From contig JBCCIM010000040.1 of the NCBI GenBank assembly GCA_039111535.1, forward strand, positions 1 to 36,669: a DNA stretch of 36,669 nucleotides, written 5' to 3'. The translations under genes were made by a program, and so were the position numbers. The notes beneath the pieces were generated by a model. It was not told the origin of the DNA, did not search any database, and worked only from the letters and a program-made list of their open reading frames with translations. Below, piece by piece: positions 12,865-16,600 of this stretch. Origin of the DNA: Bacteroidota bacterium (lineage in GTDB: Bacteria > Bacteroidota > Rhodothermia > Rhodothermales > JAHQVL01). Positions within the stretch are counted from its first letter, which is position 1; each line of letters begins with the position of its first letter.

Positions 12865-13031
12865 AAGATCACACGCCGCAGAAGGCGTGAATGAAATTGC
12901 ACATCTTCGATATAGGGATGGAGGACACTGGAGGGGTAGAGCCTCCATCCCTGCACTTCTCTCCAAAGCAACCCACGTCAAAAGGCTACCTGTTAAATTG
13001 CTGCACGGACTTTCAAGTCTGTGCTTTTTTT
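12865..13031 (+). ncRNA. Type 1 structured RNA, copy 1
   Basis: This is a predicted transcript of about 165 bases. The 5' hairpin is CACGCC/GGCGTG (12872-12877 with 12884-12889). A linker with TTGCACATCT follows, then the main hairpin: 11 perfect pairs (12914-12924 with 12942-12952) closing a loop that contains CTGGAGGGGTAG. It then has TGCACTTCT and an intrinsic terminator (13003-13031). The promoter is given separately. I do not recognise the family. The transcript ends are inferred from the -10 box and the T-run. Confidence 0.65.
13003..13031 (+). terminator. Intrinsic terminator of type 1 RNA copy 1
   Basis: An 8-10 bp stem (13003-13012 with 13015-13024, one G-T pair) is followed directly by seven T (13025-13031). 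This is a textbook rho-independent terminator on the plus strand. Confidence 0.85.
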
Positions 13032-13167
13032 GTTTAACCCAACTTTCGCAATCCCCAAAGTACCTGGCCGGCACCACCCCTGCGGGAGTAGTTGCGAATA
13101 CAACAGGCAGGGTACGAGAATACATATCCGGCGGCATAGAATAGCTGCCAGTTGCCCGTATCATATA

Positions 13168-13290
13168 CACAAGTTCAAACGCCGCTCAAGGCGTGCTTAA
13201 AATTGCACATCTCTATTAAAGGGACGAAAGCCATCTGGAGGGGTAGCGCTTTCGTCCCTGCACTTCTTTAGGCAGGTTCGACTTTTCAGT
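13168..13290 (+). ncRNA. Type 1 structured RNA, copy 2
   Basis: The 5' hairpin is ACGCC/GGCGT (13179-13183 with 13190-13194). The TTGCACATCT linker follows. The main hairpin has 12 pairs (13220-13231 with 13248-13259) and the loop CATCTGGAGGGGTAGC. The 30 bases after the stem (13259-13288) are identical to those after copy 3 (13596-13625). A weak, decayed hairpin near 13338-13365 sits where copy 1 has its terminator; both are followed by GTTTAAC. The 3' end is therefore uncertain. Confidence 0.55.
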
Positions 13291-13505
13291 TTCAGTGCCG
13301 GCTACCTTCATCCAGCAACACTGCAAGACCAATTACATGCACAGGCGATAACGTCCATGCGTTTTAGTTTAACGCAACCTTGTTTAGGCGACGAGGCCTT
13401 AAACGCCGGCATCACCTCTCAAGGAGTAGCAGCAAATACGACAAGCAGGGTAGCAGATTGCATATACGGCAGCATAGAAAAACTGAATTACACTCGTATT
13501 ATATA

Positions 13506-13625
13506 CACAAGATTTCACGTCGGATGAGGCGTGTCATTTTGAACACTTCTCTTTTCAAGGGACGGAGGCCATCTGGAGGGGTAGGCCTTCGTCCCTGCAC
13601 TTCTTTAGGCAGGTTCGACTTTTCA
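13506..13625 (+). ncRNA. Type 1 structured RNA, copy 3
   Basis: The 5' hairpin is CACGTC/GGCGTG (13516-13521 with 13528-13533, one T-G pair). The main hairpin has 13 pairs (13558-13570 with 13584-13596, one G-T pair) around ATCTGGAGGGGTA. Its upstream flank from about 13404 aligns with that of copy 2 from about 13070, including GCATAGAA and a TATTAT box, so the repeat unit of about 340 bases was duplicated as a whole. No terminator is visible close by. Confidence 0.55.
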
Positions 13626-13814
13626 ATGCTCGCAGCATCGCGGACACCGAGCCCATAGCGATACAGTCAACAGCTCTTTATTCTATTACAACCTCACAGC
13701 ATGCGACCTTCCGCATGTATAGTACTGAGGTACCAGTATAATCTTCTTCCTTAGCGCCAGCAACTTGGGTTTGTTACGGTATATCTCGCGCAGGGGAACG
13801 GCGTATAATACATT

Positions 13815-13945
13815 AAACAACATGCCGGGTGAGGCATGCTGTTTTGCTCACATCTAAGAAAAGGGACGAAGGCCATCTGGAGGGGTATAGCCTTCGTCCC
13901 TTCATCTCTTCTACTGCCACGCAGAAAGCCTGGCAGTCTTTTTTT
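13815..13945 (+). ncRNA. Type 1 structured RNA, copy 4
   Basis: A perfect TATAAT (13804-13809) precedes the 5' hairpin CATGCC/GGCATG (13821-13826 with 13833-13838). Compared with copy 1, one C-G pair has become T-A on both sides. The main hairpin has 13 pairs (13861-13873 with 13890-13902) with loop CATCTGGAGGGGTATA. A terminator follows at 13913-13945. The predicted RNA is about 130 bases and is the most compact copy. Confidence 0.65.
13913..13945 (+). terminator. Intrinsic terminator of type 1 RNA copy 4
   Basis: ACTGCCA/TGGCAGT (13913-13919 with 13931-13937) forms seven perfect pairs and is followed by C and seven T (13939-13945). Confidence 0.8.
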
Positions 13946-14029
13946 GGGCTTGTCTTTAGACCGGGATCAGATTAACCATCAGATTAGGTAAGTTTTTGCT
14001 AAAGAGTTTCGCCAGGTCTCCGATATATG

Positions 14030-14100
14030 TATTAGGCACATCTCTCAAGAGGACGGAGGCCACAACGGTGGGGTAGGCCTCCGTCCCGCACTTCTCTCTA
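14030..14100 (+). ncRNA. Type 1 structured RNA, copy 5 (degenerate)
   Basis: The main hairpin is kept with 11 perfect pairs (14051-14061 with 14076-14086), preceded by GCACATCTCT and followed by GCACTTCTCT. The loop has drifted to ACAACGGTGGGGTA and lost the GGAGG core, and I find no 5' hairpin. The copy may be decaying or specialised. Its transcript could run to the terminator at 14363. Confidence 0.4.
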
Positions 14101-14362: not shown

Positions 14363-14396
14363 AAAAGCCGCATTTCAGTCTAAAATGCGGCTTTTT
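14363..14396 (+). terminator. Strong intrinsic terminator separating the two RNA arrays
   Basis: Thirteen perfect pairs (14363-14375 with 14383-14395) include an A4 tract on the left arm and run into five T on the right, so it should stop plus-strand transcripts coming from the type 1 array. The A-rich left arm means it could also act on the minus strand. Confidence 0.8.
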
Positions 14397-14922
14397 CAAA
14401 TTTAGCGTCCCTGCACACGCACAAGAAAAAAGTTTGGCACCCTAAATGAATGGCTATATGCAGATTCATGTTGTACTAAATTCACCCGGCGCGTAAGTAG
14501 GCTGTGCATAACTTTTGTTCTTTTTGTGTCAGCCGAAAAAAATTACGCCACCGCCTGCGGGCGGAGTGAATCTGGTAGTACTTCAGCAAAGCGATTGACA
14601 AAAAGAGCTGAACGTTCTTTGCAGTTTTGTCTACACAGGCGCGCTCAATACACGCTATCTGCGCAGCTACTTCCCCCCAACTTCACCCCGTAGCAGCGAA
14701 GAAATGATCGGCGTGTATCAGGATCAGGAAAGCGCAAATGAACAGCTTAAGATACCCCAGTCCGATAAGCCGTTAACGAGCAGTCAAATGCGCCAAAGGT
14801 GCAGCCCCGCTGTGCCTAATGTAGAAGTGAGATTTGCAATCGCCGGGCTAAATTACAAGCGTTCAAACAAGGACACACCTACCGCCCAGAAGGTAGATTC
14901 TTTGAGAAACTGATATTCCCAA

Positions 14923-14993
14923 ATTGCTGCTAATACCGGGGGGCAAGCAGCAATAGTAGAGGACCGGCCGGGACCTAGTCCTGGCCGGACTTC
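14923..14993 (+). repeat. Type 2 repeat unit 1 (hairpins A and B)
   Basis: Hairpin A has stem 14923-14930/14947-14954. Hairpin B has stem 14964-14974/14978-14988 with one G-T pair, extended by GAGG/CTTC outside an A-A mismatch. Confidence 0.75.
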
Positions 14994-15073
14994 GCCACTA
15001 TTGACTCCTCTGGTATCTGTAACAGCCTGTCTGCTTCAAAGAAGCGCGCGCATGTTACAAGAGACAGCATCAA

Positions 15074-15145
15074 CATTGCTGCTTTAATCGGGGGGCAAGC
15101 GGCAATGGTAGAGGACCGGCCGGGACTTAGTCCTGGCCGGACTTC
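15074..15145 (+). repeat. Type 2 repeat unit 2 (hairpins A and B)
   Basis: Hairpin A is extended to nine pairs by a C-G closing pair (15074-15082/15099-15107, one T-G pair). The loop begins TTTAATC instead of TAATACC but keeps the six G and CAA. Hairpin B is at 15116-15126/15130-15140. Confidence 0.75.
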
Positions 15146-15218
15146 AACCCGACTCCATCACAGAAGGAGTCCATCACAGAAAGATTTCCCTGGCGCATTT
15201 GAACACGCGCCATTCGAG

Positions 15219-15289
15219 TTTGCTGCTAATACCGGGGGGCAAGCAGCAAAACTAGAGGACCGGCCAGGACCTAGTCCTGGCCGGACTTC
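15219..15289 (+). repeat. Type 2 repeat unit 3 (hairpins A and B)
   Basis: The first pair of hairpin A is T-A here instead of A-T (15219-15226/15243-15250), a compensatory change. Hairpin B (15260-15270/15274-15284) is fully paired because A-T replaces the G-T of units 1 and 2. Confidence 0.75.
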
Positions 15290-15335
15290 GACCTCTGAAG
15301 TCCTCGAATATAGAAAAAGATTTATAGATTTCAAT

Positions 15336-15367
15336 ATTGCTGCTAATACCGGGGGGCAAGCAGCAAT
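15336..15367 (+). repeat. Type 2 repeat unit 4 (hairpin A only)
   Basis: Stem 15336-15343/15360-15367 with the canonical loop. Hairpin B is replaced by the terminator that starts three bases later. Confidence 0.75.
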
Positions 15368-15369
15368 TC

Positions 15370-15401
15370 AAAAGCCAACCAGCTTCTGCTGGTTGGCTTT
15401 T
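15370..15401 (+). terminator. 14-bp intrinsic terminator ending the type 2 array
   Basis: Stem 15370-15383 with 15388-15401 is perfect over 14 pairs with a TTCT loop. The right arm ends in four T followed by AC and five T. The left arm begins with four A, so it can act in both directions. It insulates alkB from upstream transcription. Confidence 0.88.
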
Positions 15402-15529
15402 ACTTTTTATATGGCTTGCCAAAGATCTTCTTCAGAACGTGCAGCCGACAGCAAGGCAGCGAAAAAAAGCCGGCTACGTTGTACCTTATAACTTGCACCC
15501 GCTAACCGGCCACGGAAGAGCCTCCTTGC

Positions 15530-16600
15530 ATGACTGCACGCATCAAACTTCTGAAATACCTGAGCGCTTTCACACTCCCCCTGACAATGGCAATTGCCCT
15601 GAGCTTGGGCGGCTGGTGGAGCTTTTTGCCATTTGTTTACGTTTTCGGACTTATTCCGGGCGTTGAGCTTTTTCTTAAGCCACAACCCATCAACCTCACT
15701 GCAGCAGAAGAAGCACTCGCCAAGGCCGATCCATTTTTTGACTGGCTACTCTATCTCACCATCCCTACACAACTCGGTTTTCTCGCCTGGTACCTGATCA
15801 GCATCAACACGCATGCTTTTGAGGCCTTTGAATATGTTGGTCTTGTATTATCCATGGGTATTATGTGCGGCGTTTTCGGAATTAACGTTGGGCACGAATT
15901 GGGGCACCGGACCAAAAACCATGAAATCAAGCTTGCTAAAATTGCACTGGCAAGCTCCCTCTACATGCATTTCTACATTGAACACAACCGCGGCCACCAC
16001 AAGCGGGTTGCGACGTACGACGACCCGGCAACAGCACGGCTTGGGGAGAACATTTTTGTATTCTGGATCAGAAGCATCACCTTCAGCTTCCTGTCTGCCT
16101 GGGAGATAGAAGCAAAACGGTTGAAAAAAAAGAGCCAGCCCTGGTTTTCGTTGCACAATGAAATGCTACAATTTATGTTCATTCAGGCCTGCATCCTGAT
16201 TGGCATCGCAATCCTATTTAGCATCCAAACCATGGCCTTCTTTATCCTGGCTGCTTTGGTTGGTATCCTGCTCCTGGAAACTGTCAATTACATTGAGCAC
16301 TACGGTCTCCAGCGCACCTTAAAAGAAAATGGACGGTTCGAACGCACAAATCCACATCATTCGTGGAATTCCAACCATGTGATAGGACGCCTGATGCTTT
16401 TTGAGTTGTCGCGGCATTCTGATCATCACTACGAGGCAAGCCGCAAATACCAGGTGCTCCGCCACCACGATGAGAGTCCGCAAATGCCAACGGGTTACCC
16501 TGGTATGATGGTGATGGCCCTTATGCCTCCGCTCTGGTTTTATGTGATGCACCGCCGGCTTGACGCAATAAGTACCGAAGTAGAACCCACTGCGACCTAA
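15530..16600 (+). CDS. alkB: Alkane 1-monooxygenase (AlkB-type membrane di-iron hydroxylase)
   Basis: 356 residues from ATG 15530, with GGAAGAG upstream. It hydroxylates the terminal carbon of medium-chain alkanes, taking electrons from rubredoxin. All histidine boxes are present: HELGH (122-126), EHNRGHH (151-157), RHSDHH (295-300), plus the AlkB signature NYIEHYG (253-259). About six membrane helices surround them. The AlkB signature separates it from fatty-acid desaturases. There is no fused rubredoxin domain and no rubredoxin or reductase gene nearby, so electrons must come from elsewhere in the genome. The gene stands alone between the RNA arrays and convergent rarA, with 11 bases between the stops. 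Confidence 0.93.
   Translation: MTARIKLLKYLSAFTLPLTMAIALSLGGWWSFLPFVYVFGLIPGVELFLKPQPINLTAAEEALAKADPFFDWLLYLTIPTQLGFLAWYLISINTHAFEAFEYVGLVLSMGIMCGVFGINVGHELGHRTKNHEIKLAKIALASSLYMHFYIEHNRGHHKRVATYDDPATARLGENIFVFWIRSITFSFLSAWEIEAKRLKKKSQPWFSLHNEMLQFMFIQACILIGIAILFSIQTMAFFILAALVGILLLETVNYIEHYGLQRTLKENGRFERTNPHHSWNSNHVIGRLMLFELSRHSDHHYEASRKYQVLRHHDESPQMPTGYPGMMVMALMPPLWFYVMHRRLDAISTEVEPTAT

Follow-up and report, generated by a model that had tools for sequence, protein, structure and literature searches.

A tandem hairpin array with a conserved 5' head

The window, i.e. the whole stretch of 36,669 nucleotides analysed here, carries a tandem array of two alternating hairpins, A and B, for which the initial annotation proposed a single long multi-domain non-coding RNA of at least 480 bases. 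This raises the question of whether an RNA is indeed the selected product of the locus and, if so, in what way it may act. The proposed elements were all recovered. Hairpin A occurs four times, with spacings of 152, 144 and 117 bases between successive copies (the annotated values being about 150, 145 and 117); hairpin B, with its 11-bp stem, follows the first three copies and has the loops CTA, TTA and CTA; and the last A, ending at 15366, abuts the 14-bp terminator at 15370-15401. The limits of the array needed revision, as the conserved unit begins near 14735 and not at 14923. Pairwise alignments among three genera delimit a conserved block of about 667 bases (window 14735-15401), and its 188-base head before the first A contains two conserved stretches, AATGC(G/T)CCAAAGGTGCA and TTCTTTGAGA. 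Within this head CAAAGG and TCTTTG, both invariant, could pair with each other. A 12-bp pairing between 14784-14795 and 15191-15202 was rejected, being absent in the two other genomes and competing with a local hairpin. A search upstream of 14735 for a sigma-70-like site or a promoter motif of the Bacteroidota type found none. The features are as follows, with bit scores from a covariance model of the A-B unit (R1):

14735-14922, + strand: conserved 5' head, alignable in all three genera; the upstream limit is the end of the alignment, not a mapped start
14787-14803: AATGCGCCAAAGGTGCA in the 5' head
14897-14907: ATTCTTTGAGA in the 5' head
14924-14953, + strand: hairpin A, copy 1; TTGCTGC stem, loop TAATACCGGGGGGCAA; 88.9 bits
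14959-14993, + strand: hairpin B, copy 1; GAGG/CUUC, A.A mismatch, 11-bp stem, loop CTA
15018-15059, + strand: hairpin C (spacer 1); closing helix UGUAAC/GUUACA
15076-15105, + strand: hairpin A, copy 2; 98.5 bits
15111-15145, + strand: hairpin B, copy 2; loop TTA
15220-15249, + strand: hairpin A, copy 3; 91.5 bits
15255-15289, + strand: hairpin B, copy 3; loop CTA
15337-15366, + strand: hairpin A, copy 4, without B; 51.3 bits including the terminator
15370-15401, + strand: intrinsic terminator, 14-bp stem

Distribution and sequence conservation

The array has a single locus in the 6.6 Mb assembly from which the window comes (G000), which rules out a dispersed palindromic repeat of the REP, ERIC or MITE type. 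Among 60 relatives it is held by two genomes of the same family and of other genera, G002 (69% over about 500 bases, E = 1.7e-44) and G001 (best piece E = 2.6e-18). All three genomes have exactly four A and three B hairpins, and a terminator occupies the position of a fourth B; at the equivalent place in G002 and G001 this is a terminator-like hairpin of other sequence. A search with R1 identified the array in 3 of 114 genomes of the order, all from one family, and gave no further credible match in 394 genomes sampled across the phylum; matches in G111 (order set) and G127 (phylum set) were plain terminators without G6 loops. Phages, plasmids and viral contigs (IMG/VR) yielded no match to the array. 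The intervals between A copies are 152/144/117, 152/110/104 and 147/131/179 in the three genomes. As these differ by non-multiples of three, no reading frame is conserved and a coding sequence is excluded. The same intervals are not near-constant and the structure of spacer 1 is conserved, and a CRISPR array was rejected as well.

The neighbouring rarA provides a measure of the divergence between these genomes. Its protein is 76-80% identical, while its four-fold degenerate sites are 25-32% identical, i.e. saturated, so that unconstrained sequence would be randomised at this distance. In hairpin A, all 12 copies from the three genera agree at 22 of the 30 positions, including the whole CGGGGGGCAAG loop, and the variable bases are those between the stem and CGGGGGG. 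Judged from these comparisons, the repeated A loop sequence is under strong selection. Hairpin B has retained its shape through compensatory changes and its base is conserved (GGUAGAGGA...CUUCAACC), with loops that vary freely (CTA, TTA, GTAT, UUCG, CUUG and others). The mean similarity of B copies is 0.82 within and 0.76 between genomes, a small difference that hints at possible homogenization within a genome. The spacers had been credited with a different, private hairpin each. This does not hold for spacer 1, as independent folds of the three genomes give a hairpin at the same place and with the same topology, closed by unrelated helices (UGUAAC/GUUACA in the window, UGUAC/GUACA in G002 and CGACG/CGUCG in G001) and followed on its 3' side by AGAGA or GAGA. 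Spacers 2 and 3 differ among the genomes in both length and fold, and the spacer lengths, from about 40 to 110 across sites, match the expectation for linkers.

Folding, covariation and the selected strand

An A-B unit folds with -41 kcal/mol (z = -5.6) and the 631 nt region 14780-15410 with z = -7.9, both relative to dinucleotide shuffles. Together with the conservation in two other genera, these scores argue against a chance origin of the array. Pairs were counted in alignment A7, which is fitted to the covariance model and hence leans towards it, and alignment A2 was left out as it contains reverse-strand and terminator matches. In A7, 96% of the pair cells of the A and B stems are kept. 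Double-sided changes are found at seven pairs, six of them outside helix A, a number reached in 3 of 500 shuffles, and the covariation score is 0.233 compared to 0.145 in shuffled alignments, none of which reached it; both values again stem from the model-fitted alignment. A MAFFT alignment that predates the model agrees with this (95% of pairs kept, six pairs with double changes, 0.207 compared to 0.129). In the full three-sequence alignment used with RNAalifold, spacer 3 and the fourth A of G001 are misaligned, and its long-range pairs were left out.

The compensatory stem changes of the initial annotation are all present. Outside the A stem, copy 3 has a T-A pair where the other three copies have A-T, with an extra C-G in copy 2, and the single variable pair of B, said to move between G-T and A-T, is G-T in copies 1 and 2 and A-T in copy 3. 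It is B that carries the covariation. As the A stem is almost invariant, compensation backs A at its outermost pair only, and hairpin A rests on complementarity, energy and this one variable pair. The stems are preserved in the homologues from both further genera, as the proposed RNA demands, and the conserved block of about 667 bases ends at the terminator, which supports one long multi-domain RNA. Judged by its sequence and that of its homologues, the region is very probably a structured non-coding RNA.

Read on the + strand, the stems contain G-U in 18 cells and A-C in one, distributed over several pair positions, although the cells are not independent of each other. This excess indicates that selection acts on a + strand RNA, and the pattern fits neither a DNA element nor a - strand RNA. 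Hairpins that function as DNA, for instance as protein-binding or recombination sites, would be expected to appear as palindromic repeats of conserved sequence, as they do here; yet the tolerance of G-U and not of A-C, the compensatory change in B, and the fixed order with a terminator at a single locus make such a function highly improbable.

Genomic context

Upstream of the array, designated type 2, the window contains a second hairpin array, type 1 (model R2), which is context and lies outside the type 2 RNA:

12900-14095, + strand: type 1 array of five hairpins
12900-12960, 13206-13267, 13544-13604, 13849-13909 and 14037-14095, + strand: the type 1 copies
14363-14395, + strand: terminator-like hairpin and T-run between the two arrays

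The two arrays stand in the same order in the three genomes, type 1 ahead of type 2, and are followed by rarA in the opposite direction; three type 1 copies lie upstream of type 2 in G002 and two in G001. Models R1 and R2 have no matches to each other's elements, in agreement with the earlier view that the two arrays are unrelated, and the terminator-like hairpin at 14363-14395 suggests that they are transcribed separately in this genome. A DctQ gene lies upstream in the window and in G002, not in G001. In the window only, a desaturase/alkane-monooxygenase-like gene begins at 15530 on the same strand, 128 bases past the terminator, and the array might thus be a cis-acting leader of this gene. 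However, the gene is missing at the homologous place in G001 and G002, where no co-directional gene is found 3' of the array and rarA is convergent instead, and a close relative of the gene elsewhere (locus L024) lacks the array. The conserved co-directional downstream gene that characterizes riboswitches and cis-leaders is therefore not seen. As the neighbouring genes differ among the genomes, the RNA is not the leader of a fixed gene; a leader function is very unlikely, and appears largely refuted by the homologous loci.

Comparison to known RNA families

No match to Rfam release 15 was found in the window at the gathering threshold, and cmscan up to E = 5 gave sub-threshold matches only, which were judged to be chance (the best being RF00236, with 28.1 of 45 bits). 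The array is unannotated and new as a family, while of a known general kind, the multi-hairpin, multi-site RNA. It resembles CsrB/CsrC and RsmX/Y/Z (reviewed in PMC7652899) in being a free-standing non-coding RNA with one loop motif on several hairpins and an intrinsic terminator; in all three genera four A copies precede the terminator. Unlike in CsrB and RsmZ, the loop is CGGGGGGCAAG in 12 of 12 copies and lacks the ANGGA core, and the array is longer, with a second hairpin type alternating. CsrA (PF02599) is absent from G000, G001 and G002, the controls being positive, and identity with CsrB is ruled out by this absence and by the loops without ANGGA. Hfq is likewise absent from all three genomes, again with positive controls, and an RRM protein is found in one of the three only, which suggests a different kind of partner for the RNA, if that partner is a protein.

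The type III toxin-antitoxin RNAs ToxI and CptI (PMC8860590, PMC4627078) likewise combine tandem RNA repeats with a terminator at their end, whereas here the units measure 104-179 nt and the spacers are unequal. No toxin gene is located downstream at the three loci and there was no PADLOC toxin hit; with a desaturase-like gene (window) or convergent rarA (the others) and no toxin endoribonuclease, a type III antitoxin was rejected. GOLLD, ROOL and OLE (PMC12286853, PMC2864571) are also large multi-hairpin bacterial RNAs of unknown or partly known role. The array differs in that it has internal repeats and gives no cmscan match even at E = 5, and a search of phages and viral contigs yielded no relative.

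A putative multivalent RNA

The explanation that we tentatively prefer, at somewhat less than even confidence, is a free-standing + strand non-coding RNA of about 670 nt, ending at 15401 and acting in trans, whose four loops bind one partner so that it serves as a sponge or scaffold. We infer this multivalent action from the loop letters being selected at four sites while B and the spacers are kept as shape and linkers. The four invariant A hairpins would offer the identical loop CGGGGGGCAAG to the one partner, for which an RNA-binding protein is the most likely candidate. The B rods and the spacers, whose shape or position is conserved and not their sequence, would keep the four sites apart. 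The simplest function would be titration (sponge) or clustering (scaffold) of the partner.

The invariance of A could alternatively be due to pairing with a conserved target or to an assembly of RNA only. In the former case the four loops of a trans-acting antisense RNA would pair with C-rich stretches (GCUUGCCCCCC) of target RNAs, and a loop invariant in 12 of 12 copies is what a seed would show. Exact complements of the loop outside the array, to which the target scan was confined (shorter seeds and mismatched targets being outside its scope), are nevertheless few, two in G000, one in G001 and three in G002. These sites share no similarity between the genomes and five of the six are inside long ORFs, and Hfq, as noted, is lacking. 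Scattered, non-orthologous and mostly in ORFs, the complements lower the antisense reading without removing it, and we consider it doubtful. The 16S anti-SD, presumably another candidate for pairing with the A loop, was dropped, as the loop lacks GGAGG.

An RNA-only assembly, in which the four G6 tracts form a G-quadruplex or the RNA self-associates via the near-palindromic B stems, would agree with there being exactly four G6 tracts, one per A hairpin, in each of the three genera. A precedent is given by GOLLD, ROOL and OLE, large bacterial RNAs capable, according to PMC12286853, of forming RNA-only complexes. A quadruplex, on the other hand, requires neither the invariant C before nor the CAAG after the G run, nor a length of exactly six, and an RNA-only assembly is unlikely. 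It is unlikely, too, that the RNA is a lineage-specific scaffold in which four identical G6 loops assemble one complex (a protein tetramer or a quadruplex core), the copy number of four being itself selected.

For the multivalent RNA that we prefer, the invariant loop constitutes a clean bait in a search for the partner. A non-coding RNA that survives saturating divergence in genomes lacking CsrA and Hfq implies that a regulator based on RNA, or an RNP, is at work. The type 1 elements, present both next to the array and at other places of these genomes, suggest that the family has a broader RNA network.

The type 1 hairpin family

The type 1 hairpin consists of CACAUCU, a stem GGGACGGAGG.. with a G-rich loop, and GCACUUCU. 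It is a dispersed element confined to the bacterial family that also carries type 2, found in tandem beside type 2 and as single copies elsewhere in the three genomes (contig:position):

G000: C2:62850, C246:3024, C8:66345 and C19:23936
G002: C155:11327 and C410:9522
G001: C164:13161, C192:2615 and 12493, and C122:24626

The two copies on C192, a 15-kb contig, have identical scores and mirror-image surroundings, which may reflect either a true inverted duplication or an artefact of the assembly. An amidase gene (PF01425) in G000 and in G001 has a type 1 element directly upstream, in antisense orientation to the gene, at about 1501-1615 of locus L160 and about 1501-1635 of locus L151. The arrangement in G002 (L155) looks alike by eye, and conserved placement at the amidase is possible. 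Several type 1 units are followed by a terminator-like hairpin of their own (window 12950-13030 and 13908-13950; L003 about 560-605), so that a number of individual small RNAs, and not one, may make up the type 1 array. The base of hairpin B at 14959-14993 (AGAGGAC...GACUUC) resembles that of the last type 1 copy at 14037-14095 (AGAGGAC...GUCCCGCACUUCU), and G-rich loops occur in both arrays (GGGGUA, GGGGCA). On these resemblances, a shared partner or origin of type 1 and type 2 is possible.
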